Source: Phycisphaerales bacterium
Lineage (GTDB): Bacteria; Planctomycetota; Phycisphaerae; SM23-33
NCBI GenBank assembly: GCA_018644725.1
Contig: JABGPZ010000048.1
Coordinates: 1 to 64,000, forward strand
DNA length: 64,000 nucleotides
Direction: 5' to 3'
Positions 268-16,573 of this stretch are shown in pieces. The position numbers and the translations under genes are program-made. The notes below the pieces were generated by a model that did not search any database, was not told the origin of the DNA, and was given only the letters and a program-made list of their open reading frames with translations. Within the stretch, counting starts at the first letter, position 1. Each line of letters begins with the position of its first letter.

Positions 268-1437
268 TCATGGGAGGGCATATCGGATTGCATCCGTCGG
301 ACAGGCGTTTAAACATCTACCACAACTGAAGCAATCGGCTGGTAGTTTGTTTTTCTGCACGCGCCCTCTGGCCGCTTCGGACGGACAGGCGCGATCACAG
401 GCTCCACAATCTGTGCAGAGATTGCGGTTGATTCTCACACCGAATAGACTGAACCGCTCGAGGATCCAACTCAAGAGGCCAAAGGGGCAGATAAAATGAC
501 AGAACGGTCGATAGACGCCAAGCGAGACGAGGAGGAAAATGCCGATAGCAATCCCCGTAAACAAAGTCTCTACTTCAAGGTTGAAAAGGTTGAACGGGTT
601 CACAAAATGGTAGAGTACAAATCCCTCTTTGTTGCCCACGATGCCGAAAAGAATCAATAGCGTTAGAACAAATAGAACGCTACGGATGGTGTTGGAAACG
701 ACGAAGGGAACTTTTCGCTTTTTCAGAGCTCGCAACATGGGCAAGCGGTAGAGAAGTTCCTGCAGTGCGCCGAATGGGCATGCCCAACCGCAAATTAGCT
801 TCGTGCCAATGAGGCTTAGGATCGCGAAGAAAATGAAGCCAAGCACTTTTTCGAGGACGGATGGATAAAGCCCGGCCATGCTTTTGAAAACCTTGACGGT
901 GCCTTCCATCGGGTTGGGCGATTTACCCAGCGCAAACCCGCAGACTGCAATCGACAAAATCAGCACGGCAATATAAAGCCAACTAGGATACCACAATTCC
1001 CGGTCCTTGACCGTGGAATTGTCAGGTCGTCCGAGACGAATCAGATAGACCAGCCCAAAGAGTGCGAGGGCTGTGAAAATGTAATATTTGAAGGTGGTGG
1101 ATCGATGGCTGGCGATGTGATGTGTGGCGTGATCCAATTGCTTTTGGGTGATACCGAATGCTTTGAGGGGTTTGTTCTTTGAGGTTGCCAGAGGAAGGTC
1201 CAGTTCGCGGGCGAGACTCTTACCAGTCACATCGAGGGCGGGCGCGATCTGTTTGATCGACATATTGATGGAGAATGGAGGCGTCGAGGCTGGGGCGGAG
1301 TCCTCTTGGATTGCCCACCCGCCCACGATAATTGCGATGGCGACAAGGAGTGTCAAAAGAAGATAGATGCGCTGTTGGCGAGATTGATACTTGAGCATAA
1401 GATTGCTTTTTTTGGAATTATCCCTTTTTGGGGCCAC
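268..1437 (-). CDS. Membrane polyferredoxin, NapH/NosR/CcoG-like 4Fe-4S protein
   Basis: Multiple TM segments, CGWACPFGALQ and CHFICPFG motifs, C-terminal CTDCGACDRACP and CFSCGRCLNACP clusters. GTG start at 1437, or ATG at 1398. Confidence 0.85.
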   Translation of the reverse strand: MAPKRDNSKKSNLMLKYQSRQQRIYLLLTLLVAIAIIVGGWAIQEDSAPASTPPFSINMSIKQIAPALDVTGKSLARELDLPLATSKNKPLKAFGITQKQLDHATHHIASHRSTTFKYYIFTALALFGLVYLIRLGRPDNSTVKDRELWYPSWLYIAVLILSIAVCGFALGKSPNPMEGTVKVFKSMAGLYPSVLEKVLGFIFFAILSLIGTKLICGWACPFGALQELLYRLPMLRALKKRKVPFVVSNTIRSVLFVLTLLILFGIVGNKEGFVLYHFVNPFNLFNLEVETLFTGIAIGIFLLVSLGVYRPFCHFICPFGLLSWILERFSLFGVRINRNLCTDCGACDRACPSEAARGRVQKNKLPADCFSCGRCLNACPTDAIRYALP

Positions 1438-1948
1438 GTTCCAGCAGGAAAAAGATGGCTAGATAGAGCAAGGTGAACATGCCAATGATCAGCCAGTGAT
1501 GGATGCCGAGAATCTCGGGAATGCTTTTCTTGCCGTAGGTTCCCCATGTCAAAACGGAGTCTTTCAGGGATGGATACAACTCGGCATAGAGTCCCGCGCC
1601 GACCAGCATTCCCAGAATTCCCCATCCGGCATGCCAACGGCCTTCGCCTAACGCGCCTCCTGCCGTGCCGGGGCAATAGCCCAAGATCGCCCAGCCAAGT
1701 CCAAACAGGCCGCCACCGATGAGTTGAGCCCCGATGGAGATGGATTTCAATTTCAGATCAATCCACCCCATGTCCCGACAGACATAGATTCCCACCGATC
1801 CAACGAGAATGGCTGAGAACATGAATTTCAAAATCGTAGCATCTCGCAAGAGCAGAAATCCGACTTGTTTCTCGAAACGAAGAACGCCGCCCTTTTGCAG
1901 GAGAAATCCAAAGAAAATTCCGGTGATGAGTCCTAAGAGGAGTTCCAT
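1418..1948 (-). CDS. YeeE/YedE family (sulfur/thiosulfate transport-like) membrane protein, half 2
   Basis: MELLLGLITGIFFGFLLQKG..., GYCPGTAGGALGEGR motif. Start overlaps the stop of the next gene upstream (TAATG). Confidence 0.85.
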   Translation of the reverse strand: MELLLGLITGIFFGFLLQKGGVLRFEKQVGFLLLRDATILKFMFSAILVGSVGIYVCRDMGWIDLKLKSISIGAQLIGGGLFGLGWAILGYCPGTAGGALGEGRWHAGWGILGMLVGAGLYAELYPSLKDSVLTWGTYGKKSIPEILGIHHWLIIGMFTLLYLAIFFLLERGPKKG

Positions 1949-2484
1949 TAGTTTCCTCCCTTCCGATAGATGCAATTGGCCGCAAGGATTCCGCCAGCCA
2001 TGAATCCGACCATCGCCAGAAGCCCACTTCCCGCCAGCTGCATCATGCCGCTCAGCCCATGTCCACTGGGACACCCTCCAGCCAGGCGTGCGCCTAGAAT
2101 CGCAAGAATTCCACCAAGAAAAGCACCAAGAGCTCGAACGTGCCATTTTGGCCCGAAGCGAGCTTTCCAAAGAGTAGGTACGGTTTCGGACTTGAATTCC
2201 TGGCTGGCAATCGCTGCAAGAAAAGCCCCAATAACAATCCCGACAACGAGCATCATCTGCCAGTCAACCTTGATCTTCTTCGACTGGAAATACTCATTGG
2301 ACGAGACGTGATCGGAGGCGACTTGCGATTCGGCGAGCCCAGCCAGCCGGACCATCGTGGTTGATGTGCCGAGATACTTTGGCTTGGCCAGTAACTGCGT
2401 CGAAATGACGACGGAGGTGATGGCCAGCAATCCGACCAAGCCGCCAGCAATGTAGGGACTCCAAGGTTTCCGAAACCAATTCAT
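1948..2484 (-). CDS. YeeE/YedE family membrane protein, half 1
   Basis: LAGGCPSGHGLSGMMQLAGSGLLAMVGFMAGG motif; paired with the downstream half. Confidence 0.85.
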   Translation of the reverse strand: MNWFRKPWSPYIAGGLVGLLAITSVVISTQLLAKPKYLGTSTTMVRLAGLAESQVASDHVSSNEYFQSKKIKVDWQMMLVVGIVIGAFLAAIASQEFKSETVPTLWKARFGPKWHVRALGAFLGGILAILGARLAGGCPSGHGLSGMMQLAGSGLLAMVGFMAGGILAANCIYRKGGN

Positions 2485-2561
2485 GGTGATCTCCTTCTTG
2501 CTTTGTTGTTGTCGTGTGCTACAACTACTCGCTCGATTATAGGCGACACCTGGCCTTGGGG

Positions 2562-2918
2562 CTATTCAGGAGCGTTTGTCACTTTTCCGGTTTTGGGACA
2601 GACGATGCGGGCTTTGCCGGATTTTTTACATTTCCACGGGGCAAACGTGCCGTCGGCCAGCTTTGTTTTCGCCACACCAGTCTCGGGGCACACGTAGATT
2701 TCCTTGCCTTTGGCGCATTTGTAGATTGCACACTTACAATTGGTGCAAACGCCCGTTTTGGTCATCCCATTGGAGAGAGTCTGGGGCATGGCTTTGGCGG
2801 CCTCGATGACACAATTTGTTTTGGGCGCGGTTTGGTCAGTGGCGGGGTCTTCACACCCAGCAACCATAAATCCGCAGGCCAGTACCAGGGATACTGATAG
2901 CATCGTTTTCAGCGTCAT
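2562..2918 (-). CDS. Small Cys-rich predicted lipoprotein
   Basis: MTLKTMLSVSLVLACGFMVAGC lipobox; CTNCKC...C...C...C pattern. Start reassigned to ATG at 2918. Confidence 0.65.
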   Translation of the reverse strand: MTLKTMLSVSLVLACGFMVAGCEDPATDQTAPKTNCVIEAAKAMPQTLSNGMTKTGVCTNCKCAIYKCAKGKEIYVCPETGVAKTKLADGTFAPWKCKKSGKARIVCPKTGKVTNAPE

Positions 2919-2982
2919 AATTCCATTCCTTTCACAAGGGTGTTTTTCGTAGCTTACGCAGCAACTCAAAACAGCCTCTCGA

Positions 2983-3891
2983 TTAATTGTCTTTGATGGG
3001 GCTCGCAATTGTGGCCTGGATTTTTTCCCAGACTTCACGAATTTCCCCGGCGCAGCTGGCCTCTTGATATTCGATGACTGTCTGTTGAGCAATTTGAGCA
3101 TCAGTGATCGCACGGTCATAACGAACGCGTGGGGCGACCTCAATTCCATGGTTTTGCGCGAACAATTCGATTCGATCGGTAATCACCGCGTTGAGATCCC
3201 ATTTATTGACACACACCATAGCGGGGATTTTGAAGTGCTTCGCTAATTCCGCCACTCGTTTGAAATCGTGCATTCCGCTCTGGGTTGGTTCGGTAACGAT
3301 CAGCACCAAATTCGCGCCGGTGATTGACGCGATTACTGGGCAACCAATCCCCGGCGAACCGTCGATGAGGATTGTTTCGACACGTCCAGCTTCGGCTAGA
3401 GCTCTTGCTTCGGTTCGAAGGATGTGCACAAGTTTTCCTGAATTTCCTTCGGCGATTCCCAGTTTGGCATGGACCAATGGGCCGAATCGGGTCTGTGAAA
3501 CAAACCATTTGCCATTGATCGCGGGGGCAAATTTGACAGCGCCACCGATGCAGAACCAGTTGCAGACACCGCAGCCTTCGCAAGCGGTTGGGTCGATTCG
3601 GGCGGTTTTCTCAACAGCGTCATTGGCGGGACCGTCCATTGTAATGGCATCAAATTGGCAATACTCTTTGCACACGCCGCAGGCGGTGCAGGCGGCAGGG
3701 TCGACCGCTGCGCGATTCCCGCCGGAAAAGTCGGTCTGTTTGGTGGGCACGGGGTCAAGGATCAAGTGCAGGTCAGCCGCGTCGACATCGCAGTCTGCGA
3801 CGATACAGTCTTCTGATAATGCCGCAAAGGAAGCAACCAGGGACGTCTTGCCCGTCCCTCCCTTGCCACTAATGACTACAATTTCATTCAT
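2983..3891 (-). CDS. MinD superfamily P-loop ATPase with inserted ferredoxin domain
   Basis: SGKGGTGKTS Walker A, CTACGVCKEYCQF and CEGCGVCNWFC inserts. Confidence 0.93.
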   Translation of the reverse strand: MNEIVVISGKGGTGKTSLVASFAALSEDCIVADCDVDAADLHLILDPVPTKQTDFSGGNRAAVDPAACTACGVCKEYCQFDAITMDGPANDAVEKTARIDPTACEGCGVCNWFCIGGAVKFAPAINGKWFVSQTRFGPLVHAKLGIAEGNSGKLVHILRTEARALAEAGRVETILIDGSPGIGCPVIASITGANLVLIVTEPTQSGMHDFKRVAELAKHFKIPAMVCVNKWDLNAVITDRIELFAQNHGIEVAPRVRYDRAITDAQIAQQTVIEYQEASCAGEIREVWEKIQATIASPIKDN

Positions 3892-4736
3892 CGTGTTGTC
3901 TCCTGGCGGATTCGCTCCAGTAGCCGTTCAATCCCGAAACGATAGCTCTCCGAAACGGCTGATAGAAGCTCGCCGCGTGAATAGGCTTCAGCGACGGGGC
4001 GCAAGTCGGGAATTTGAGAAAGGATTGGAATGCCTTGGTCGCGGCAATAGTCACGGGTTTTTGAATCCCCCATATTCGCTCGATTGATGACCACGCCAAA
4101 CGGGAGTTGGAGTTTTCGCATTGCTTTTACGGCCAGCTTCAGATCGTTCAATCCAAATGGTGTGGGCTCAGTAACAAGAACGACATAGTCAGTGTTTCGA
4201 ACCGATTCAATGACTGGACACGACGTCCCTGGCGGGCAATCTACGATGGTTATATCGCTTTTGTCAGAGGCCGCCTTGACGGCGTGGATGACAGGCGGGC
4301 TCATCATTGTGCCGATCTTGAGTCGCCCCTGGCAAAATTCGATGCTTCCAGCTTTTCCCTGCTGAAGTCGACCTATTTCTTCACGCCCTTGTGTGATTGC
4401 GCCGAATGGGCACACCTCCCAACAGCCACCACAGCTGTGGCACAGGTCGGGAAACGTCAAGACCGTTTTGTTCATCACTACAATCGCGCTGAATTGGCAG
4501 ATCGCTTCACATTGGCCGCAAGCAATACATTTGGTTTCGTCGACCTTGGGGACCTTAACGAAAATTGGCTCGTCGTTTTCCACGGTTGGCTTGAGAAAAA
4601 TGTCCCCATTGGGAGCTTCGACATCACAGTCGAGATAGGAAACCGTCTGGCCTTGCTGAGATGCAACAAAGGCGAGATTGGTCGCGATGGTGGTTTTTCC
4701 TGTTCCACCTTTTCCACTGGCGATGGCGATGTTCAT
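3888..4736 (-). CDS. MinD superfamily P-loop ATPase with inserted ferredoxin domain
   Basis: ASGKGGTGKTT Walker A, CIACGQCEAICQF and CHSCGGCWEVCPF inserts. ATGA overlap with the downstream gene. Confidence 0.93.
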   Translation of the reverse strand: MNIAIASGKGGTGKTTIATNLAFVASQQGQTVSYLDCDVEAPNGDIFLKPTVENDEPIFVKVPKVDETKCIACGQCEAICQFSAIVVMNKTVLTFPDLCHSCGGCWEVCPFGAITQGREEIGRLQQGKAGSIEFCQGRLKIGTMMSPPVIHAVKAASDKSDITIVDCPPGTSCPVIESVRNTDYVVLVTEPTPFGLNDLKLAVKAMRKLQLPFGVVINRANMGDSKTRDYCRDQGIPILSQIPDLRPVAEAYSRGELLSAVSESYRFGIERLLERIRQETTR

Positions 4737-4984
4737 GAGGCGGATTGTTTCTTCTGGAGTTCATCCTCAAGGTGATGGATTTGCTCCTGAAGCGCCGTGA
4801 TTGTGTCACGCCGTCTTTGGCGAAACTGTAATCCGTTTCCCCCTCGGCCGAGGCCTCGGCCTCGAACTCGGCGAGCTCTTTGGAATCCCATGCATCCTGG
4901 GATTTCAACATCGGCGCAGAGTCCCGCGCCACGACCTGTCATGGGGCCCAGTCCGGCAGGGCCTGTTTGATCTCGATTAGGCAT
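4733..4984 (-). CDS. DUF5320-like protein
   Basis: N-terminal MPNRDQTGPAGLGPMTGRGAGLC resembles the DUF5320 signature; C-terminal coiled coil. Confidence 0.75.
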   Translation of the reverse strand: MPNRDQTGPAGLGPMTGRGAGLCADVEIPGCMGFQRARRVRGRGLGRGGNGLQFRQRRRDTITALQEQIHHLEDELQKKQSAS

Positions 4985-4996
4985 GATGTGCCTCCT

Positions 4997-5686
4997 TTAG
5001 TTTTCTGTGGGTGTTGTTGGGTCATCTTTAAGGACCATGAACCAGTCCAAAACTTGCGTCCCTTCGGCAGGTTGCTCCACGCGTTCCTTCGCCGTTCCGC
5101 ACGACCCAGCCGGCGGAACGATGACTTTGTCCCCGGGTGTCCAGTTTGCAGGAGTTGCAATATTCTCTTTATCAGAAAGTTGCATGGCGACCAAAAGGCG
5201 CTTAATTTCCTGCATATTCCGCCCATTACTGAGCGGATAATACAGAATGGCGCGAACAATGGCATTGGGATCCATGATAAATACGGCGCGAACGGCTTGG
5301 GTTGTGCTTGCCGCTGGCTGAAGCATTCCAAATGCGCGAGAGACATCCATCGTCAGGTCGCTGATCACGGGAAAAGTGACTTCCACGTCTTTCATGTCTT
5401 TGTATTCTATTTTCTCTTTGATTGTTCGCAACCAGGCGATGTGGCTGTAGGTGCTGTCAATCGAAAGTCCTAACAGTTTGCAGTTAAGGGATTCGAATTC
5501 TGGCTGCATGGATGCAAAGGTCATAAATTCCGTCGTGCAAACCGGTGTAAAGTCGGCGGGATGAGAAAAGAAAATCACCCAGTGACCCTCATAATCACCT
5601 GGGAATTCAATCGGTCCTTGAGTGGTTTCTGCTGAAAAACCAGGAGCGGGTTCTCCGATCAGTGGCATTCGTGTTTCCGTTGTCAT
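4997..5686 (-). CDS. Peroxiredoxin, 1-Cys/Prx6-like
   Basis: HPADFTPVCTTEF active site, LSIDSTYSHIAW, YPLSNGRNMQEIKR. Start reassigned to MTTETRMPL at 5686. Confidence 0.9.
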   Translation of the reverse strand: MTTETRMPLIGEPAPGFSAETTQGPIEFPGDYEGHWVIFFSHPADFTPVCTTEFMTFASMQPEFESLNCKLLGLSIDSTYSHIAWLRTIKEKIEYKDMKDVEVTFPVISDLTMDVSRAFGMLQPAASTTQAVRAVFIMDPNAIVRAILYYPLSNGRNMQEIKRLLVAMQLSDKENIATPANWTPGDKVIVPPAGSCGTAKERVEQPAEGTQVLDWFMVLKDDPTTPTEN

Positions 5687-5739
5687 AGGAGTCTCCTTTG
5701 GGGGCTCTATAGAGAGAGGAATGTGAAAGGCTTGGTTTT

Positions 5740-6138
5740 CTATTTTTGGTATCGAGGAGGATGGCAACACCCTCGTTGTCTTTGGCGCGTTTGAGTTTGC
5801 CTGCCACAGCAGCCTGGCATTCCGAATTGTTGTTCGTTGAGATCCCCTTTGATAAATCCAGCAAGAACATGCTCCACATCGCCGCACACGCGGGGGATTA
5901 CATCAATCCCTTTGGCAAGGAGCTCCAGCTCCACGGGCTTTGAAATTGCGCAACAAACCAACACGTCCACTCCACGGTCGCGCAGGAATTGGACTCGATA
6001 CTCAGGATCCGGGCTATCGAGAGCGACCAATTGCCTCGATTGCTCTTGCCTGTGGGTGATCTCGACAAGCAATACGTTAGTGAATACATCGAAGACGGGG
6101 CTGATGCGGCCTTGCCAAGTTGGAATTGCGATCTTCAT
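5740..6138 (-). CDS. NifX/NafY (dinitrogenase Fe-Mo cofactor / ORP) family protein with Cys-rich tail
   Basis: MKIAIPTWQGRISPVFDV...LLVEI family start; tail MPGCCGRQ...GCC. Confidence 0.85.
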   Translation of the reverse strand: MKIAIPTWQGRISPVFDVFTNVLLVEITHRQEQSRQLVALDSPDPEYRVQFLRDRGVDVLVCCAISKPVELELLAKGIDVIPRVCGDVEHVLAGFIKGDLNEQQFGMPGCCGRQTQTRQRQRGCCHPPRYQK

Positions 6139-6149
6139 TACAATGATAT

Positions 6150-6166
6150 TTTCAATTCGCGTGCCA
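6150..6166 (-). promoter_or_regulatory. Candidate sigma-54 promoter for the leftward arm
   Basis: Minus strand TTGGCACGCGAATTGAA: good -24 (TTGGCACG), but -12 is TTGA rather than TTGC. GG-N10 spacing correct. Confidence 0.5.
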
Positions 6167-6240
6167 AAAAATAAGAAACAATTTAACTGTAGTAATACAA
6201 GTATATTGTGATTGATTATAGATGTTGGCCAACTAAATAA

Positions 6241-6290
6241 TCGTGCAAATTGATATGTTATGGAGTAGTATTGTATTGCAACCTGCACGA
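6241..6290. promoter_or_regulatory. Candidate enhancer-binding-protein sites (UAS)
   Basis: ATTGCA-acc-TGCACGA (6275-6290) and degenerate TCGTGCA-aat-TGATA (6241-6255), centres 33 bp apart. The same box occurs upstream of the rightward sigma-54 promoter. Confidence 0.45.
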
Positions 6291-6307
6291 TTTGAGGAGC
6301 CCGTAAA

Positions 6308-7660
6308 ATGAATGAACCAAGACGCGAAACCATCATCTTAGATTCGATTAACGAGGGCGTATTCACTGTCGACCTCGACTGGCGCATCACGTCGTTCAAT
6401 CAGGCGGCCGAGCGGATCACGGGCGTCTCGGCCGAGGAGGCCATTGGCAGCGCCTGCTGCGAAGTCTTCCGCGCGAGCATCTGTGAGACGGATTGCGTGT
6501 TGTGGCGGACCATGGAGACATCCCAGCCGATTGTCAACGCCACCGCGCACATCATCAATCAATATGGCGAGCGGATTCCGATTCGCATTTCCACCGCACT
6601 GCTCCGGGATGAAGCGGGCGAGATCGTTGGCGGGGTCGAAACATTTCAAGACTTGACGCAGATCGAGGAGCTTCAAAAAGAGCTTCACGCCCGGTACACC
6701 TTTGAGGATATCGTCGGCCAAAGCCCCGCGATGATGCAACTCTTTGACATCTTGCCGCTCGTCGCTGATAGTAGCAGTACGGCATTGATTGAAGGGCCCA
6801 GCGGCACGGGCAAAGAGATTTTTGCGCGGGCAATTCATAATCTATCGCCACGCAAGAAAAAGCCATTCATCGCAGTCAACTGCGCCGCGCTCCCCGACAC
6901 GCTACTCGAGAGCGAATTGTTTGGACACAAGGCCGGGGCGTTTACCGATGCTAAGCGCGACAAGCCGGGACGGTTTGCGCTCGCGGATGGCGGCACGATT
7001 TTCCTCGATGAAATTGGTGACATTTCTCCGGCGATGCAGGTGCGCCTGTTGCGAGTGTTACAGGAGCGTGTTGTCGAACCCCTCGGCGGCGTCAAGCCCG
7101 TCCCGGTCGATGTGCGCGTGATTGCCGCGACCAACAAGAACCTTGCCGAGCTTGTACGTGAAGGGACGTTCCGTGACGATCTCTATTATCGCATACGCGT
7201 AGTGCATCTCGATTTGCCCAGCCTTGCACAAAGACGCGAAGACATTCCACTCTTGACCGAGCATTTGATTGCGAAGTTCAATCGTCTTCAGGGCAAGGCC
7301 ATTGTTGGAGTGAGTGATGAGGTGCTTGCACAGCTGATGGACCACGACTATCCTGGGAACGTCCGCGAGCTGGAGAACATTATCGAGCAGGCATTTGTCC
7401 TTTGTCGTGGCGGGGTGATCGAACTCAATCACCTACCACCCGAGCTGCGTCCCACTGGTGCCCAAGGGGACGATGCTTCGCGGCCGATGAGCCTTGAGGC
7501 ACTTGAAAAACACTTCATCGCGGAAGCACTGAAACGTCGCAACGGCAGCCGTAGCCGCGCTGCTAAAGATCTCGGAATCAATCCCAGCACACTCTATCGC
7601 AAGATTAAATCACTTGAGATTGACGTGCCCGAAACCGATGGACGACAGCGGCGAACATAG
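6308..7660 (+). CDS. Sigma-54-dependent transcriptional activator (PAS-AAA+-Fis HTH)
   Basis: N-terminal PAS, GPSGTGKE Walker A, ESELFGHKAGAFTDA (GAFTGA-loop variant), GGTIFLDEIGD Walker B, C-terminal Fis HTH. Confidence 0.97.
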   Translation: MNEPRRETIILDSINEGVFTVDLDWRITSFNQAAERITGVSAEEAIGSACCEVFRASICETDCVLWRTMETSQPIVNATAHIINQYGERIPIRISTALLRDEAGEIVGGVETFQDLTQIEELQKELHARYTFEDIVGQSPAMMQLFDILPLVADSSSTALIEGPSGTGKEIFARAIHNLSPRKKKPFIAVNCAALPDTLLESELFGHKAGAFTDAKRDKPGRFALADGGTIFLDEIGDISPAMQVRLLRVLQERVVEPLGGVKPVPVDVRVIAATNKNLAELVREGTFRDDLYYRIRVVHLDLPSLAQRREDIPLLTEHLIAKFNRLQGKAIVGVSDEVLAQLMDHDYPGNVRELENIIEQAFVLCRGGVIELNHLPPELRPTGAQGDDASRPMSLEALEKHFIAEALKRRNGSRSRAAKDLGINPSTLYRKIKSLEIDVPETDGRQRRT

Positions 7661-7661
7661 G

Positions 7662-7677
7662 ATTGCATTTTGCATGA
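7662..7677. promoter_or_regulatory. Candidate UAS for the rightward sigma-54 promoter
   Basis: ATTGCA-ttt-TGCATGA, matches ATTGCA-acc-TGCACGA at 6275. Centre lies ~118 bp from the -24 GG, as on the divergent side. Confidence 0.45.
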
Positions 7678-7785
7678 ATCGCATAGAGACCGGCGAGTCA
7701 TTACGAGGTAATGTGAAAATTCTATCCACAGTAACCTTATGTAAAACCTATAGTTGAAAGAAGTTTTTGTTTCAGAGTTATTCTT

Positions 7786-7801
7786 TGGCATGTTCTTTGC
7801 A
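7786..7801 (+). promoter_or_regulatory. Sigma-54 (-24/-12) promoter
   Basis: TGGCATGTTCTTTGCA: GG-N10-GC. Predicted TSS ~7811, just upstream of the RBS and ATG at 7826. Confidence 0.8.
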
Positions 7802-7825
7802 CACTGCTCTATGAAAGGAATTCTT

Positions 7826-8191
7826 ATGAGCAAAATTGCAGTAACATCCAAAGGCGCAAACATTGATTCTCCCGTAGACACACGGTTTGGTCGGGCCGAC
7901 TACTTCTTGATCGTCGACTTGACGAGCGGAGAATTTTCGGCTGTTGAGAACGAAAAAAATCGAAATGCTGCCCAAGGCGCGGGGATTCAGGCAGGCAAAG
8001 CCGTCGTAGGCCTTGGCGTCCCGGCTGTCATTACCGGCCATGTCGGTCCCAAGGCGTTTACGACACTCCAGGCCGGTGGCATCAGCATCTATACCGGCGC
8101 CCAAGGGACGGTCGCGGAGACGATTGAGCTCTTCAAGACGGGTCAATTGCAGCGGGCCGCCACGGCCGATGTGGAAGGGCACTGGGTATAA
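7826..8191 (+). CDS. NifX/NafY (ORP-like) family protein
   Basis: MSKIAVTSKGANIDSPVDTRFGRADYFLIVD... typical of the dinitrogenase Fe-Mo cofactor family. Confidence 0.9.
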   Translation: MSKIAVTSKGANIDSPVDTRFGRADYFLIVDLTSGEFSAVENEKNRNAAQGAGIQAGKAVVGLGVPAVITGHVGPKAFTTLQAGGISIYTGAQGTVAETIELFKTGQLQRAATADVEGHWV

Positions 8192-8193
8192 CC

Positions 8194-8820
8194 ATGCGGC
8201 CGAAAGCAGAGCAGACTCGATTCACTCCGCCCGCACTGGACACGGCTTGGTTGCCGGATGATCTTCTGCCTTGCGTAGAATTCCACGGCCATCTTTGCCC
8301 GGGCCTGGTGATCGGATACTGCGCGACAAAGCTCGCCATGCAACGCCTAGGCATCGGACGTGCGGAGGATGAAGAATTGATCGCCATCGTGGAGAACGAC
8401 AGTTGTGCGGTCGATGCGGTTCAGGTTCTCACAGGTTGCACGTTTGGCAAGGGCAACCTGAAATTTCTCGATCACGGCAAGATGGCGTTCACCTTTGCTA
8501 CCCGACGCGATGGACGATCTGTCCGGCTTCTCTATCGGCCGCAACTTTTGCCAAAAGGGCAAACCATGCCAGAGGAGCACCAACGTGCATGGACCATCAA
8601 GCAGCTACTTACGCATGATCGTCTTGAATTGTTCGAAATTCAAGACGATGTTCTGTGCGAGCTTCCTCCCCGTGCACAATGTTATGAAACGATCTGGTGT
8701 GACGCCTGTGGAGAGCGGACCATGGCTACGAGAATTGAAACTATAGACGAGAAAAAATTGTGCGCCGCCTGTCGAGATCAAACCCTTCCGATCCAATCTA
8801 ATGAAAGGAAACCCGAATGA
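8194..8820 (+). CDS. FmdE family protein with C-terminal zinc ribbon
   Basis: CVEFHGHLCPGLVIGYCATKLAM, DSCAVDAVQVLTGCTFGKGNL, C-terminal CDACGE...CAAC. Confidence 0.92.
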   Translation: MRPKAEQTRFTPPALDTAWLPDDLLPCVEFHGHLCPGLVIGYCATKLAMQRLGIGRAEDEELIAIVENDSCAVDAVQVLTGCTFGKGNLKFLDHGKMAFTFATRRDGRSVRLLYRPQLLPKGQTMPEEHQRAWTIKQLLTHDRLELFEIQDDVLCELPPRAQCYETIWCDACGERTMATRIETIDEKKLCAACRDQTLPIQSNERKPE

Positions 8821-10034
8821 CTTCGTGTGCCCAAGTACAATCGAAAGATGTCTCCATGAGAGAACTTGATGAAGGGATTCTTCAAACGAATATGGGCCGT
8901 ATTGGCCAGAAGATTCTCGTACTCTCCGGCAAGGGTGGGGTCGGCAAATCGACCGTTGCCGCAAACCTTGCCGTCGCATTATCCAAGGCGGGCAAGCGCG
9001 TTGGGCTTCTCGATGTCGACCTTCACGGCCCGAGCATTCCAAAGATTCTCGGCCTGGAGGGGATGCGACTTTGTCCCGATGCGATGGGCCACATTGAACC
9101 CATCATGGTCAGTGAAACGCTTTCAGTGATTTCGGTGGGCTTGCTACTGGACAAACAGACAGATGCTGTTGTTTGGCGTGGCCCGATGAAGCAGAACGTC
9201 ATCCGGCAGTTTCTCAAAGATGGCGTATGGGGCGATTTGGACGTACTCGTCGTCGACTCGCCGCCCGGCACAGGCGATGAACCGCTGGCTGTTGCCGAAA
9301 TGGTCGGTGAGAACGCGTCGGCTGTCATCGTCACCACGCCGCAGGACGTCGCCATCGCGGATGTGCGACGTAGCGTCTCATTCTGCCGAATGTTGGAGTT
9401 GCCCATCGCAGGCATCATTGAAAACATGAGCGGCCTGGCATGCCCACACTGCGGCGAAATTGTCGATCTGTTCAAAACCGGCGGCGGCGGAAAACTGGCG
9501 CGAGAAATGGGTGTGCCCTTTTTGGGATGTATCCCGTTAGATCCAGATATTGTTTCTGCTGGCGACAGCGGAACTACGTTTACTCAATCTTCTACCAACA
9601 GCCTTGGCGCTCAGGCGTTCGCGTCTGTGATCGCCCCAATCCTCAACCCCATTTCTCCAGCCGAGCTGGAGAGCAACTCCAAGGAGCCTCAATCTATGAA
9701 AATTGCTATCCCCACCGCTCAAGGCGAGCTTTGCATGCACTTTGGCCACTGCGAACAATTCACGATGATCGAAGTCGACCCCACAACCAAAAGCGTACTT
9801 TCGACCGAAATGCTTACTCCGCCGCCTCACGAGCCGGGTGTCTTGCCGCGCTGGTTGAGTGAACAAGGTGCCAATCTCATTATCGCTGGCGGCATGGGTC
9901 AACGTGCCCAAGGATTATTTGTTAAAAATGGGATCAATGTCATCGTGGGCGCACCTGGAAAATCGCCCGAAGTCCTCGCGCTGTCCTACCTCAACAACAC
10001 GCTGGAATCTGGCGCCAACGCCTGCGACCACTAA
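8817..10034 (+). CDS. Mrp/NBP35 ATPase fused to C-terminal NifX/ORP domain
   Basis: LSGKGGVGKSTVAANLAVAL, DSPPGTGDEPL, CPHCGE; second domain starts MKIAIPTAQGELCMHFGHCEQF. Confidence 0.95.
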   Translation: MTSCAQVQSKDVSMRELDEGILQTNMGRIGQKILVLSGKGGVGKSTVAANLAVALSKAGKRVGLLDVDLHGPSIPKILGLEGMRLCPDAMGHIEPIMVSETLSVISVGLLLDKQTDAVVWRGPMKQNVIRQFLKDGVWGDLDVLVVDSPPGTGDEPLAVAEMVGENASAVIVTTPQDVAIADVRRSVSFCRMLELPIAGIIENMSGLACPHCGEIVDLFKTGGGGKLAREMGVPFLGCIPLDPDIVSAGDSGTTFTQSSTNSLGAQAFASVIAPILNPISPAELESNSKEPQSMKIAIPTAQGELCMHFGHCEQFTMIEVDPTTKSVLSTEMLTPPPHEPGVLPRWLSEQGANLIIAGGMGQRAQGLFVKNGINVIVGAPGKSPEVLALSYLNNTLESGANACDH

Positions 10035-10053
10035 GCATACTGGAGCTGTACCT

Positions 10054-10428
10054 ATGCCTGTTACCAAGGCACTTGATGCCTATCAATCAAAACGTCTGAA
10101 CTGTGCCCAAAGCATCCTACATGGATTTTCAGAATATACATCCGTTTCCTCCGAAGAGATTCTTGCGGCCCGTCAACACGGCGGAGGACGAGCGGAACAA
10201 GGCCGCTGCGGCGCGTTGAATTCTGCACTGAAGCTGGTGGAATCCGAGTCTCATCGTGACACGCTATGTGATGCCTTCTCTGCGATAGCGGGCTCGGAAT
10301 CCTGTCGGATCATTCGGAAACAGAATCGAATCACTTGTGGTGAATGCGTAGAGCTTGCCGCGATGGAACTCCATCAAATGCTGAAGTATTCGCCCAAAAA
10401 CAAACACAAGGCCAATCACCATGAGTGA
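10054..10428 (+). CDS. C_GCAxxG_C_C family protein
   Basis: LNCAQSILHGF...GGGRAEQGRCGALNSA...C...C; start ATG 10054. Confidence 0.8.
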   Translation: MPVTKALDAYQSKRLNCAQSILHGFSEYTSVSSEEILAARQHGGGRAEQGRCGALNSALKLVESESHRDTLCDAFSAIAGSESCRIIRKQNRITCGECVELAAMELHQMLKYSPKNKHKANHHE

Positions 10429-10897
10429 TCCCACCCAAGAACGTTTGGAGCAAACCCGCTCGAACTATCACGCGCGATGTTTGGTTTGCGCAAGGCCGCA
10501 CGACAACGCCTTGGCGTTGGAGTTTGAAGTCTGCCCAGACGGCTCGGTTCGCTCCGGGTTTCCCTGCGAGGAATCCTTCGAAGGATATAACGGCCTACTT
10601 CATGGCGGAGTGATTTCCTCCATCGTCGACGGCGCGATGACCAACTGCCTTTTTGCCCATGGCATCGTTGCGGTCACCGCCGATCTCAATGTTCGGTTTC
10701 GTCATCCGGTTGAGCTACTCGTGCCGCTGGAAGTGACGGCGAAGATTACCCTTAATACGGGCCCGCTATATCATCTCGAAGCACGGCTGACTCAATGCGG
10801 TGTGTTGAAGGCAAAGGCGGCCGCGAAATTCATGAAAGCCCCCGCACCTCTCGCTAAACAAATTGAAGAGGATTCCGGTCAAAAAAGGGAGGAGTGA
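10421..10897 (+). CDS. PaaI-like hotdog thioesterase
   Basis: EGYNGLLHGGVISSIVDGAMTNCLFAHG, hotdog signature; overlaps the upstream gene. Confidence 0.88.
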   Translation: MSDPTQERLEQTRSNYHARCLVCARPHDNALALEFEVCPDGSVRSGFPCEESFEGYNGLLHGGVISSIVDGAMTNCLFAHGIVAVTADLNVRFRHPVELLVPLEVTAKITLNTGPLYHLEARLTQCGVLKAKAAAKFMKAPAPLAKQIEEDSGQKREE

Positions 10898-10898
10898 T

Positions 10899-12038
10899 GT
10901 GATTCAGAGCAAAACATTGTTCGATGACATCCAGCGAGCCATCCGGGTCGCGGGAGAAGACCTTAAAGACGCCCGAGGGTTTTTGGCGAATCCCGGGTTT
11001 CTTGCAGAACGACTTATTCAAGGTGAGCAACGCCGCAACGTTACCATGCAGAAGCATGAAACGCCGATCCCTCGGTTTGCAATTGTCTCCGTAACGTGGG
11101 ACTGCAATCTTGAGTGCACCGATTGCTACGCCAGCAACTATACCTCTGGAAACGAACTCTCACTAGATCAGCTCCGCTCAACCCTGGAGCAATGCATTGA
11201 CGCGGGAACCTGCTTCTTCATCATCGTTGGCGGCGAACCGTTGATGCGGCCAGGATTGTTGGAGTTGTTGCGCAAGCTGGATGATGGGTTGTTTTTGGTC
11301 TTCACAAACGGGACGTTATTGAATGAAGCCCACGCCCAGCTCTTTGCAACCAGTCCTAATCTTATGCCAATTTTCTCTATGGAGGGCAGCTCTCATTTTA
11401 CCGACTCTCGCCGTGGCGCTGGGGTGGGCGTTCAAATTGCGGAGGCAATGACATGCCTCACGGAGCATAAAGTGCCATTTGGGATTTCCTGCATGGTCAC
11501 GCGAGAGAATGTTTCACTTGTGACCAGCCGTGCCTGGTTTGATGAAATATGGCAGCGTGGAGTTCGATTTGCGTTTCTGGTCGATTACATTCCAATGGAA
11601 GATATGCCAGAAGGATCGATGATTCTCACGGCCGAAGACATGGCCGATAAACAGGCCGCGCTGGCTCAGCGATGGGAAGACGCCAAGCCGCTGGTCGTCA
11701 ATTTTCCGCCGGATGAATATCTGGACAGTGCACCTTGCATGGCGGCAGGACGCGGGATGATTCATATTAACGCCGACGGGTTTGTTGAACCATGTCCCTT
11801 TAGTCATTATGCCGCTGACAATATGAAGGATAAATCCTATCTGGAAGTTCTACAGGGGCCGTTTCTCACGCGTCTTCGGAATGAAGTCTGCACACGCCCG
11901 AACCCGACAAAATCCTGCCTGCTCCAGCAACAGGAAGCTCTTGTGAAATCCATTGCCACACAAACGGGAGGATTTTGCACTGAACACCTTCCCACAGATC
12001 CCTTTTCACAACCAATCGCACCATCCGTTTGGCAATAG
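10899..12038 (+). CDS. Radical SAM protein with SPASM-like C-terminus
   Basis: CNLECTDCYASNY CxxxCxxC motif, VGGEPLMRPG, C-terminal CMAAGRGMIHINADGFVEPCPF. Probable GTG start at 10899. Confidence 0.88.
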   Translation: MIQSKTLFDDIQRAIRVAGEDLKDARGFLANPGFLAERLIQGEQRRNVTMQKHETPIPRFAIVSVTWDCNLECTDCYASNYTSGNELSLDQLRSTLEQCIDAGTCFFIIVGGEPLMRPGLLELLRKLDDGLFLVFTNGTLLNEAHAQLFATSPNLMPIFSMEGSSHFTDSRRGAGVGVQIAEAMTCLTEHKVPFGISCMVTRENVSLVTSRAWFDEIWQRGVRFAFLVDYIPMEDMPEGSMILTAEDMADKQAALAQRWEDAKPLVVNFPPDEYLDSAPCMAAGRGMIHINADGFVEPCPFSHYAADNMKDKSYLEVLQGPFLTRLRNEVCTRPNPTKSCLLQQQEALVKSIATQTGGFCTEHLPTDPFSQPIAPSVWQ

Positions 12039-12046
12039 GAGAATCC

Positions 12047-13864
12047 ATGAATGTGAAACGAGCAATGTCCATAATCATTGGCCTGTCAACAATCACAATG
12101 ATTCTCGTGTATAACCCATCCACAAAAGCAGTCGCCGCACCTCCTGAACCCAAGGAGAGCTACGCCTCACCGGTGGCGATTGTTTCTGATGGGACAAATC
12201 TCTATATTCCCTGTGCAACAAGTTCGAAAATTCTGGTCGTGAATGCCAAGACAAACAAATTTGTAACGGCGATCAAAACAAAGACTCCACTCAGCGGTGC
12301 GAGCCTGTCAGGGAAAACGCTTCATGCAACCTGTGGTACAATTCCGGGAAAGCTCTTGTCGATTGACACTCGAATGCACAAAATTATAGAGTACAAACAG
12401 ACATTTCACGCGCCGTGTGCTCCGATTGTTTCAGGGAAAACTATCTACATTGCCGACCGATACCGAAACCTCGTGATTAATGTCACCAACGGCAAGACAA
12501 TTCCCGTTAGCCGCGAGCCGGTCGCCATGGCCGCAACTCCAGATGGAAAAACCCTTCTCGTCGCGAATCTATTGCCGGCCGGTAAAGCTAACGGTGACTA
12601 CGCATCAAGCCTTGTAAGCCTCATCGACACCGCCACGGACAAAGTCATCACCGAGCTTCCATTGGCCAACGGCGCAACAGGGCCGCGTGGAATCGCAATT
12701 GATCCTGAAGGAAAATTCGCTTACATCACCCATGTCCTTGGGCGCTATCAGCTACCTACAACACAGATTGAACGCGGCTGGATGAACACCAATGCGATCT
12801 CGGTGATCGACATTGCCGCGAAACAAGTTGTCAATAGCGTCCTGCTCGATGATGTGGATTTCGGCGCGGCCAACCCATGGGGCGTGGCTGTCAGCCCCGA
12901 CAGTAAAACACTGGTTGTCACTCATGCAGGGACTCACGAGTTGTCGATCATCGATCTTCCCGGCCTGCACAAACTCCTTGATGAGTATGCCAAAACCGGC
13001 CGGGCCAAAGAAGTGCCGAACAAGCTCTCGTTCTTGTCGGGCATCAGGCGACGCGTAAAATTGCCTGGCCGAGGGCCTCGCAGTGTGCTTATCCTTGGCC
13101 GTATCGCTTGGGTGCCGATGTATTTCTCCGACACATTGGTCCGAGTCGACCTTGATGAGAAATCCCTCCGAGCCATACATGAAATTCCTCTGGGGCCCAA
13201 AGTGAAACCCTCCCAGAAAAGACTCGGGGAAATCTTTTTCCATGACGGCGCCTTGTGCCTTCAAAAATGGCAATCGTGTACATCCTGCCATCCTGATGCT
13301 CGCGCCGATTCGCTAAATTGGGATCTGTTGAATGATGGTTTGGGGAACCCCAAGCAAACGCGTACCATGTTGTTCAGCCACTATACGCCGCCGGTTATGA
13401 TTACGGGGGTCCGGTCGGGAGCGGAGCACGCTGTCCGTTCGGGGATTCGGTTCATTCAATTTGCAGTTCGCCCAGAATCGGATGCCAAGGCGATTGATGC
13501 CTATCTTAAATCTCTTGCATCAATCCCAAGTCCATTGCTCATCAACGGAAACCTCTCCCAATCCGCCCAGCGCGGGAAGGTCGTGTTCAAGGCTGCAAAA
13601 TGTGCAACCTGTCATACTGGAGTCTATTATACTGACCAGAAAAAATACGATGTTGGACTTGGAATCGACATTGAAAAGGGTCGTGAATTTGACACGCCAA
13701 TTCTGAGTGAAGTTTGGCGAACCGCGCCCTATCTCTATGATGGCCGTGCGAAAACCATGATGGACGTTCTCACAACATGGAACAAGAACGACACCCACGG
13801 GAAAACATCAAATCTATCGAAGCAACAGCTTAACGACCTTTGCGAATATATTCTCTCTCTATGA
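12047..13864 (+). CDS. Exported YVTN beta-propeller fused to di-haem cytochrome c domain
   Basis: Signal peptide, repeated propeller blades (PDGKTLLVAN, PEGKFAYITH, PDSKTLVVTH), CTSCH and CATCH haem motifs. Confidence 0.85.
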   Translation: MNVKRAMSIIIGLSTITMILVYNPSTKAVAAPPEPKESYASPVAIVSDGTNLYIPCATSSKILVVNAKTNKFVTAIKTKTPLSGASLSGKTLHATCGTIPGKLLSIDTRMHKIIEYKQTFHAPCAPIVSGKTIYIADRYRNLVINVTNGKTIPVSREPVAMAATPDGKTLLVANLLPAGKANGDYASSLVSLIDTATDKVITELPLANGATGPRGIAIDPEGKFAYITHVLGRYQLPTTQIERGWMNTNAISVIDIAAKQVVNSVLLDDVDFGAANPWGVAVSPDSKTLVVTHAGTHELSIIDLPGLHKLLDEYAKTGRAKEVPNKLSFLSGIRRRVKLPGRGPRSVLILGRIAWVPMYFSDTLVRVDLDEKSLRAIHEIPLGPKVKPSQKRLGEIFFHDGALCLQKWQSCTSCHPDARADSLNWDLLNDGLGNPKQTRTMLFSHYTPPVMITGVRSGAEHAVRSGIRFIQFAVRPESDAKAIDAYLKSLASIPSPLLINGNLSQSAQRGKVVFKAAKCATCHTGVYYTDQKKYDVGLGIDIEKGREFDTPILSEVWRTAPYLYDGRAKTMMDVLTTWNKNDTHGKTSNLSKQQLNDLCEYILSL

Positions 13865-13937
13865 GCTTTGAGGACGATTTGAAGTTAGCCACACAGGCAA
13901 TATCGAACAACCTGACTACTCAGTGAAAGGGATAGAA

Positions 13938-14231
13938 ATGACAAATCCATGGGACAGCATCATAGGGACAGACGAATACAATGCCACGCTCAAACGCGCT
14001 CAGGCGTGTGCCGCCAAGGCTGGCTGGCGTTTGAACGATGACACCGAGCGCGTTGAAAAGGTCATCGGCCTGATGACGCAAAATTTCACCACCGCAGGCG
14101 ACTACTATTGCCCCTGCAAACAAACCCACCCCCTTGATCCCCAAAACGATGTCGTCTGCCCGTGCTCGGAAATCAAAGCAGAACTCGGCAACGGCGGCTG
14201 TTGCTTCTGCAAACTCTTTTTTCTAGATTGA
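13938..14231 (+). CDS. Ferredoxin-thioredoxin reductase catalytic (beta) subunit-like protein
   Basis: YYCPCKQ...VVCPCSEIK...CCFCKLF: CPC...CPC...CxC pattern of FTR-beta. Confidence 0.85.
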   Translation: MTNPWDSIIGTDEYNATLKRAQACAAKAGWRLNDDTERVEKVIGLMTQNFTTAGDYYCPCKQTHPLDPQNDVVCPCSEIKAELGNGGCCFCKLFFLD

Positions 14232-14247
14232 TACCAATTTTCAGAAG

Positions 14248-15120
14248 TTAAATGTTGATGATTTTGAGCTGCTTCTTGACGTAGGTGCTGCCGACATTCA
14301 CTACGCGAAGGGAGCCACATTGCCGCTCTGCGGGCCAATGACTGTGGCCACAATAGACGTCCGTCACTTGCGGGTACTTTGACAGAAGTTCACCAATGCG
14401 CGTCGAGCCCATATAGGCCATCGCAAACGCAAACCGTCCAGGCCGGCCCGGCGGCACGAGACCATCAACGGGTAGATGATGGACGAAGGCGACCACGCGA
14501 TCCACTCGCGCCGCCAGAGACTCAAGCTGCGTTTCAAGTGACGCCAGAAGGCGATCGAGAAATTCCTCATCACTCATGCCAAGGTTCACCCGCCAGCCGT
14601 CCATCCATCGCGCACCGAGGCGTTCGTGTCGCTCGTCCAGCGCGGCAGCATGGATATCCAACAGTTCTGTGTGTTCACCATAATATCGCGCAGCCGCAGG
14701 AGTGATCTTCTTCTCATAAAAAGCCAGTGGCAATCCCAGAGACTCGTCGCGCAGAGAATAGTCATACCATCCGACCGACCCCACAAATCCCACGCCGCCC
14801 AATTCGGCCGGTGAAAAATCGAGGCATTCGAACCCTTCTTCGGCCGCCCATGCAGGAAGGTCGTGTTCATAACGCTGAAGTGAACATTCACCCGGCCACA
14901 CCCAAAGACAGTGGTTGCCTGGGACAAACCATTTTCGGCCAGGGAATTTTTCGAACAGTCGCAGTGCTTCACAAAATGCCTCCCTATTCCGGCCAGCGAT
15001 GTCGCCGACAATCACCAGCGCGTCGCCGCCAATTGCAAGCGCCTGCTCGGCCGCCTCTTCGGCGGCTGCGCGACTGCGGGCAATGTCATAATGGATATCG
15101 GCTGTTACAAGAATTCGCAT
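14248..15120 (-). CDS. Metallophosphoesterase
   Basis: MRILVTADIHYD...VGDIAGR...VPGNHCLW...VYCGHSHWP. Confidence 0.9.
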   Translation of the reverse strand: MRILVTADIHYDIARSRAAAEEAAEQALAIGGDALVIVGDIAGRNREAFCEALRLFEKFPGRKWFVPGNHCLWVWPGECSLQRYEHDLPAWAAEEGFECLDFSPAELGGVGFVGSVGWYDYSLRDESLGLPLAFYEKKITPAAARYYGEHTELLDIHAAALDERHERLGARWMDGWRVNLGMSDEEFLDRLLASLETQLESLAARVDRVVAFVHHLPVDGLVPPGRPGRFAFAMAYMGSTRIGELLSKYPQVTDVYCGHSHWPAERQCGSLRVVNVGSTYVKKQLKIINI

Positions 15121-15263: not shown

Positions 15264-15764
15264 TTATTTGACTTCGAAAAATTTCTCGCCGGGCACGTTG
15301 CAAATCGGGCACTGGCCGGGAATCACTGTGACTGTATTGCCGCACACCGGGCAAAGATAGATGCTCGCCGCGGGCAGGTCGCCGCCAGCCTCGACGGCTG
15401 CGATGGCTTCGACATACATTGCGTTGTGAATCTCTTCCACCGCGAGGGCGTTCTTGAAGGAGAACACGGCGGGCTTGTTTCCCTCGGCCTCGGCTTGAGC
15501 GAGAAACGGCGGGTACATTTCTTGGAATTCGTGGGCTTCGCCTTCGGCGGCTTCTTGCAAATTCTTGATCGTTTCACCAATTCCCCCAAGCACCCTCAAA
15601 TGGGCGTGGGCATGAATGGTTTCTGCGCCAGCCGCAGCGCGAAACAGTTTTGCGACCTGGGGCAGGCCATCCTCTTCGGCTTTTTTTCCAAACGCAAGGT
15701 ATTTCCGGTTGGCTTGACTTTCGCCGGCAAAGGCTTCAGCGAGGTTTTCGTTGGTTGTGGTCAT
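15264..15764 (-). CDS. Rubrerythrin
   Basis: N-terminal ferritin-like ESQANRKYLAF...EIHNAMY; C-terminal rubredoxin-like CPVCGN...CPICN. Confidence 0.95.
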   Translation of the reverse strand: MTTTNENLAEAFAGESQANRKYLAFGKKAEEDGLPQVAKLFRAAAGAETIHAHAHLRVLGGIGETIKNLQEAAEGEAHEFQEMYPPFLAQAEAEGNKPAVFSFKNALAVEEIHNAMYVEAIAAVEAGGDLPAASIYLCPVCGNTVTVIPGQCPICNVPGEKFFEVK

Positions 15765-16267: not shown

Positions 16268-16340
16268 TGACCCCACGGGGAGTCGAACCCCGGTTGCCGG
16301 GATGAAAACCCGGTGTCCTAGGCCACTAGACGATGGGGCC
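16268..16340 (-). tRNA. tRNA-Glu (anticodon TTC)
   Basis: Minus strand GGCCCCATCGTCTAGTGGCCTAGGACACCGGGTTTTCATCCCGGCAACCGGGGTTCGACTCCCCGTGGGGTCA: complete cloverleaf, 73 nt. Confidence 0.97.
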
Positions 16341-16500: not shown

Positions 16501-16573
16501 TGAAAGAGCTGGGACTTGAACCCAGAACCTACGGCTTAAAAGGCCGTTGCTCTACCAATTGAGCTACTCTTCC
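16501..16573 (-). tRNA. tRNA-Lys (anticodon TTT)
   Basis: Minus strand GGAAGAGTAGCTCAATTGGTAGAGCAACGGCCTTTTAAGCCGTAGGTTCTGGGTTCAAGTCCCAGCTCTTTCA. Confidence 0.97.

Follow-up and report, generated by a model that had tools for sequence, protein, structure and literature searches.

What unites a run of 18 adjacent genes in a planctomycete, and how many of them belong to one system? The question is raised by a Phycisphaerales bacterium (assembly GCA_018644725.1, contig JABGPZ010000048.1), of which bases 1-64000 of the 65,219-bp contig were analyzed here (the window). Between window positions 268 and 14231 these genes form two divergent arms (Table 1), which an earlier note on this DNA had described as an orange protein (ORP)-type redox cluster with the layout known from Desulfovibrio vulgaris, in a "PVC-like" genome. 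Both parts of that description stand. Judged from its sequence, the cluster is a genuine ORP-type locus of a planctomycete, of the anaerobe type, with MrpORP, an ORP-like NifX protein, two MinD-ferredoxins, and a sigma-54 activator in place; the genome belongs to the Planctomycetota, probably to the Phycisphaerae.

The assignment is carried by the core genes. MrpORP passes its NCBIfam equivalog cut-off across the full length of the protein (NF041136, 521.7 versus 450 bits), and we read in it CPHC (the CxxC of the Mrp domain) as well as CMHFGHCE and a terminal CDH in the Di-Nase domain. CxxC, CxHFGHCE, and CDH are the defining motifs of MrpORP (PMC6345978), and comparison with the NF041136 family brings out no notable difference. 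The K-type NifX protein is predicted to be ORP-like, its best solved relative being the orange protein of Desulfovibrio gigas (PDB 2wfb; E = 7.2e-20, residues 1-112 aligned), and both MinD-type ATPases match CbiA and Fer4, each with two [4Fe-4S] ferredoxin motifs. The layout resembles that of the D. vulgaris orp1/orp2 operons (DVU2103-DVU2109; PMC3897727, PMC6345978), which are divergent and sigma-54 dependent (PMC3897727): the activator gene lies between the arms, which encode two MinD-ferredoxins, ORP (Orp8), and MrpORP (Orp9), with palindromic activator sites preceding the -24/-12 promoters. Set against the published description of the D. vulgaris operons, the window cluster adds DUF5320, an A-type NifX with a cationic tail, a 1-Cys peroxiredoxin, a YeeE pair, NapH, and a lipoprotein, together with FmdE, a C_GCAxxG_C_C protein, a thioesterase, a radical SAM protein, a di-heme propeller, and FTR-beta. 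The ORP core is already known and widespread, and the window cluster is a larger version of the Desulfovibrio one.

For comparison we gathered 107 non-duplicate ORP loci (1.5 Mb), with genes called by a codon-scored caller, and, as background, 844 kb from genomes of that class. The background genomes represent that one class, unlike the 80 kept loci from named genomes, which range over many phyla, by their record labels including Planctomycetota, Desulfobacterota, Verrucomicrobia, Acidobacteriota, Fibrobacterota, Spirochaetes, and Bacillota. Several of the profiles used derive from loci of the family which are themselves counted among the 107. Core genes each occur in 48 to 97 of these loci, with the second MinD-ferredoxin family in 88 and DUF5320 in 59. 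The first MinD-ferredoxin of the pair shares 50 to 62% identity with its relatives. Since a core MinD-ferredoxin is present in 23 of 59 relatives searched and the core recurs in genomes of many phyla, the cluster is not a chance assembly. One relative (G054), whose genome is a single contig, has two separate ORP-type loci of differing make-up (L083 and L087).

The two arms also share a pattern of predicted regulatory sites. A -24/-12 site stands directly ahead of the first NifX gene on each arm, and a TGCA-N3-TGCA palindrome is found 109 to 110 bp upstream of each of these sites. The 2.54-Mb genome holds exactly two copies of this composite of palindrome and sigma-54 promoter, both of them at this locus, and the reversed-pattern control gives no match. 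RpoN is encoded in the genome. Across 35 family genomes we observe 14 matches versus 1 control, 10 of which precede an A- or K-type NifX gene starting 13 to 52 bp downstream. Another precedes a flavodoxin gene in the plus-arm position (L073), and one a string of ARMT1-like, DUF3795, DUF3795, and propeller genes beside the ORP core of the relative G029 (L076:2725-7088, minus strand; the second DUF3795 was assigned by grouping with the first); the remaining two are located elsewhere. At non-ORP loci, the composite is seen in two relatives (G012, L117:6695-6842; G023, L119:765-916), each time downstream of a gene of one family (f41) that the two have in common, and with no clear target gene just after it; these sites are possibly a further regulon member or a relic.

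In genomes beyond the window's family, the composite falls near background, with 10 matches in about 312 genomes versus 3 controls. A universal palindrome was considered and rejected: TGCA-N3-TGCA with a strict -24/-12 site is present at just 4 of the 80 wide-scan loci (L139, L161, L162, and L169), all labeled Planctomycetota. The palindrome is lineage specific, because its exact form is mostly absent in other classes. Since nowhere else in the genome are such matching sigma-54 promoters and palindromes seen, co-regulation of the two divergent operons, as the earlier note had supposed, is strongly indicated at the sequence level. The paired architecture appears to follow the regulatory scheme demonstrated in D. 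vulgaris (PMC3897727), the likeness being one of arrangement. In addition, the PAS domain of the activator carries three cysteines in a C-x8-C-x3-C pattern (Cys50, Cys59, and Cys63), conserved at 98 to 100% in 42 homologues, and could plausibly serve as a redox, thiol, or metal sensor.

From the center outwards, the minus arm encodes A-type NifX, 1-Cys peroxiredoxin, DUF5320, the two MinD-ferredoxins, the Cys-rich lipoprotein, two Sulf_transp halves, and the NapH-like polyferredoxin; the plus arm runs from the activator through K-type NifX, FmdE, MrpORP, C_GCAxxG_C_C, the hotdog thioesterase, radical SAM/SPASM, and the propeller-di-heme protein to FTR-beta. Within each arm, the activator excepted, neighboring genes are separated by anything from a 20-bp overlap to at most 77 bp. 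Window base 1 is also the first base of the assembly contig, so that the minus arm may be cut. All genes named earlier are intact open reading frames, and Pfam or NCBIfam recognizes each of them except the lipoprotein, which has a lipobox and matches no family. The earlier list was thus correct in what it named, yet it had overlooked DUF5320 and had made both NifX genes too long: the K-type gene starts at ATG 7826 rather than at TTG 7754, because the sigma-54 promoter occupies 7785-7801, and the A-type start was reset to 6138, which shortens the gene.

Table 1. Genes and predicted regulatory sites of the ORP-type locus, in window coordinates
Feature	Position	Strand	Basis or remark
NapH-like membrane polyferredoxin, last minus-arm gene before contig end	268..1437	-	Pfam Fer4/Fer4_5; NCBIfam NapH below cut-off
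YeeE/YedE (Sulf_transp) half-transporter 2, GYCPGTA motif	1418..1948	-	PF04143
YeeE/YedE (Sulf_transp) half-transporter 1, GGCPSGHG motif	1948..2484	-	PF04143, 90.9 bits
Cys-rich lipoprotein, orphan	2562..2918	-	Lipobox VAGC; no Pfam/NCBIfam family
MinD-type ATPase with 2x[4Fe-4S] ferredoxin insert, second of pair (Orp3/Orp4-like)	2983..3891	-	PF01656, PF00037
MinD-type ATPase with 2x[4Fe-4S] ferredoxin insert, first of pair	3888..4736	-	PF01656, 71.5 bits
DUF5320 protein	4733..4984	-	PF17253, 58.9 bits, cut-off 27
1-Cys peroxiredoxin	4997..5686	-	NF009668, 315 bits, cut-off 211; PF10417
A-type NifX/ORP-fold protein, PGCC motif, cationic C-terminal tail, first minus-arm gene	5740..6138	-	PF02579, 27.2 bits, cut-off 26.3
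Sigma-54 (-24/-12) promoter of minus arm, TTGGCACGCGAATTGAA	6151..6167	-	13 bp upstream of A-type NifX start codon
Predicted activator-binding palindrome, TGCAACCTGCA	6277..6287	.	109 bp upstream of minus-arm sigma-54 promoter
PAS-AAA+-Fis sigma-54 activator (DVU2106-like), PAS Cys50, Cys59, Cys63	6308..7660	+	PF00158, 232.8 bits
Predicted activator-binding palindrome, TGCATTTTGCA	7664..7674	.	110 bp upstream of plus-arm sigma-54 promoter
Sigma-54 (-24/-12) promoter of plus arm, TTGGCATGTTCTTTGCA	7785..7801	+	K-type NifX start 25 bp downstream
K-type NifX, ORP (Orp8)-like protein, no Cys	7826..8191	+	PF02579, 83.2 bits
FmdE-family protein, C-terminal zinc-ribbon-like part	8194..8820	+	PF02663, 135.9 bits
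MrpORP (Mrp/NBP35 ATPase plus Di-Nase domain)	8817..10034	+	NF041136, 521.7 bits, cut-off 450
C_GCAxxG_C_C-family protein	10054..10428	+	PF09719, 29.1 bits, cut-off 27
Hotdog (4HBT) thioesterase	10421..10897	+	PF03061
Radical SAM/SPASM protein, private to this locus	10899..12038	+	PF04055, PF13186
Exported beta-propeller plus MauG-like di-heme protein (2 CxxCH)	12047..13864	+	PF03150, PF00034
Ferredoxin-thioredoxin reductase (FTR) beta-like protein (CPC...CPC...CFC)	13938..14231	+	PF02943, 41.8 bits, cut-off 22

Which of the additional genes travel with the core? The thioesterase is present in 19 of the 107 loci versus none in the 844-kb background, and 14 of its 20 copies lie directly downstream of MrpORP. 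Peroxiredoxin and C_GCAxxG each recur in 5 loci (p about 0.002, from a simple Poisson model) and FmdE in 3 (p = 0.06, from the same model). The others are rarer: NapH is found in two loci (L080, an orthologue in a relative with 62% identity, and L184), as is the propeller-cytochrome; YeeE in one (L142, near peroxiredoxin on the divergent side); FTR-beta in one other locus (L130); and radical SAM/SPASM and the lipoprotein in none of the 107, the latter being without a relative in 298 genomes of the class. The radical SAM protein was also rejected as a conserved partner in 392 genomes of the phylum, where its nearest relatives reach 29 to 36% identity and the seven neighborhoods read all lack core ORP genes. 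Co-occurrence of the extra genes with the core, as proposed in the earlier note, therefore holds for the thioesterase, peroxiredoxin, and C_GCAxxG, is weak or sporadic for FmdE, NapH, the propeller-cytochrome, the YeeE pair, and FTR-beta, and fails for radical SAM/SPASM and the lipoprotein. Genes that recur in other ORP loci and are missing here encode MBL-fold, ARMT1-like, methyltransferase, small radical SAM, TrmO-like, rhodanese-CoA-disulfide reductase, DsrE, and DUF134 proteins. By these counts, the locus appears to be a conserved core joined to sulfur, redox, and metal genes that differ from lineage to lineage, and the 18-gene set is not conserved as a unit.

The YeeE pair resembles TsuA/YeeE/SoxT sulfur importers (PMC11582611) in its two Sulf_transp halves and conserved Cys motifs, and differs in being split into two short genes that score far under the TsuA equivalog cut-offs. 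The FTR-beta-like protein keeps all cysteines of its family, as CPC, CPC, and CFC (the last CHC in the family, with His replaced by Phe).

Such counts invite a narrower account, in which the system consists of the activator, A- and K-type NifX, MrpORP, the MinD pair, and DUF5320 only, and the extras are unrelated passengers downstream of strong sigma-54 promoters. The absence or rarity of radical SAM/SPASM, the lipoprotein, YeeE, FTR-beta, NapH, and the propeller in other ORP loci speaks for it. So does the frequency of the propeller family, a common one in the class, with members in 73 of 397 genomes at E<=1e-60 and another copy outside the locus in this genome. However, the thioesterase, placed right after MrpORP in most of its copies, recurs along with peroxiredoxin, C_GCAxxG, and FmdE, and in another genus (the relative G029) a 50% identical propeller homologue adjoins the ORP core behind a palindrome and sigma-54 promoter of its own. 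We regard the passenger account as possible, though less likely than not.

The propeller-di-heme protein raises a further alternative, namely, a sulfur or nitrogen-oxide respiration island in which YeeE, NapH, the exported di-heme propeller, and FTR would make up a chain for electron transfer, with the ORP core as its maturation kit. A membrane polyferredoxin and an exported di-heme protein do occur in adjacent arms, and among solved structures the propeller protein comes nearest to hydrazine synthase beta and gamma, with which it shares the order of a propeller followed by a di-heme module. Hydrazine synthase itself was rejected: the beta-gamma model gives 125 bits against a cut-off of 1250, and the best alpha-subunit match in the genome reaches 33 of 800 bits. 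The protein is no evidence of anammox, because it scores a tenth of the cut-off, alpha is not found over its cut-off in the genome, and many genomes of the class have members of its family. With no terminal reductase recognized among the 18 genes, and with NapH, YeeE, and the propeller not traveling together in other ORP loci, a respiration island seems highly improbable. The second propeller-di-heme copy, likewise similar to hydrazine synthase beta-gamma, lies off the ORP locus (G000:C88:6286-8052, plus strand).

The two single-domain NifX proteins and the C-terminal domain of MrpORP represent three separate lineages. In a tree of 190 sequences, a quick one built on few columns, A-type, K-type, and MrpORP C-terminal domains part almost cleanly (3 label changes versus a shuffled mean of 87), and A-type NifX falls in one group with a support of 94. 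A-type proteins end with a PGC motif and, behind it, an Arg-rich tail of median 32 amino acids, whose net charge is +5 or more in 44 of 49 sequences (median, +8), compared to 0 of 66 K-type sequences; the window copy has 29 amino acids, a net charge of +6, and no Trp. AlphaFold predicts a confident NifX fold for residues 1-100 (pLDDT about 96) and about 53 for the tail, which is probably disordered, and a Foldseek search with the A-type protein returns NifX, NafY, and ORP structures (probability, 1.00 to 2yx6, 1o13, and 2wfb). Pyrococcus furiosus IssA is proposed to bind thioferrate via a cationic tail, and an uncharacterized nonthermophilic "IssX" clade with high pI has been noted (PMC5524996). 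A-type NifX resembles IssA/IssX in its fold family (PF02579/IPR003731) and in a disordered cationic tail that is often Gly/Arg-rich, yet its tail is shorter and Arg-rich with a PGC motif, and it falls short of the repeating Gly/Trp/Arg tail of P. furiosus IssA, which runs to about 70 residues. We therefore describe it as IssA-like in character and do not file it as IssA, because the tail is shorter and the window copy is without Trp/Gly repeats.

The function that appears most likely for the locus is the handling of Fe-S or thiometallate clusters under anaerobic sulfur/redox stress. We lean, with moderate confidence, towards a system that stores, repairs, or delivers such clusters when sulfur/redox conditions shift, with two sigma-54 operons under one Cys-PAS activator. 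A redox or sulfur signal would act on the PAS cysteines, upon which RpoN would turn on both arms. MrpORP would load Fe-S clusters onto the MinD-ferredoxin pair, by analogy with D. vulgaris, where it hands Fe-S to Orp3, Orp4, and Orp8 in vitro (PMC6345978). The NifX-fold proteins may hold preformed metal-sulfide units, with the K-type carrying within its fold an Fe-sulfide cluster or a Mo/Cu-sulfide cluster, for which [S2MoS2CuS2MoS2] is the form expected of an ORP, and the A-type an anionic thiometallate against its Arg-rich tail. Sulfur would be supplied by the YeeE pair, thiol or heme electron transfer by NapH, FTR-beta, and the di-heme propeller, and peroxide defense by the 1-Cys peroxiredoxin, the accessory genes presumably coming from a set that is not the same in every lineage. 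A bolder extension, which we consider rather doubtful, is that ORP loci are thiometallate storage-and-delivery systems of mesophilic bacteria: the A-type NifX heading one operon would be an IssA-like protein of bacteria, with thioferrate or thiomolybdate kept on its Arg-rich tail and mobilized by MrpORP and the MinD-ferredoxins, and both operons would be fired by the Cys-PAS activator on a sulfur/redox change.

Several points weigh against cluster handling as the role of the locus. Radical SAM, the lipoprotein, YeeE, and FTR-beta may be neighbors rather than parts, because they are private or sporadic. By its sequence features, the window's A-type tail appears modest in length and charge, with few aromatics, unlike that of P. 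furiosus IssA, and its binding partner could be nucleic acid or membrane rather than a thiometallate. The D. vulgaris ORP complex has moreover been tied to a different role, in cell division (cited in PMC6345978), and polar localization of MrpORP is reported (PMC6345978). Together with the MinD/ParA fold of both Fe-S ATPases, this would suit a cell-division or polar-positioning module, in which the MinD-like ATPases position and the Fe-S and NifX proteins tune them to redox state. However, we see no division genes among the window cluster genes, and the recurrent ORP neighbors have to do with sulfur, redox, and metals (MBL-fold, DsrE, rhodanese-CoA-disulfide reductase, and DUF134), which makes a division module very unlikely here.

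On its right edge the locus is bordered by further genes. Next to the plus arm and after the rubrerythrin-like gene lies a calcineurin-like phosphoesterase (14248-15120); the rubrerythrin-like gene itself (15264-15764, minus strand; PF02915 over cut-off) is just beyond the plus arm on the opposite strand, and two tRNA genes follow nearby (16268-16340 and 16501-16573, minus strand).

The ORP complex is widespread in anaerobes, and to it the present locus adds an explicit, predicted regulatory code, as well as a list of the neighbors that truly travel with the core. The parts most worth following are this code, the adjacency of MrpORP and the thioesterase, and the cationic-tailed proteins: as a second lineage of NifX in which this tail is conserved, they make the hypothesis of thiometallate handling by ORP systems directly testable.

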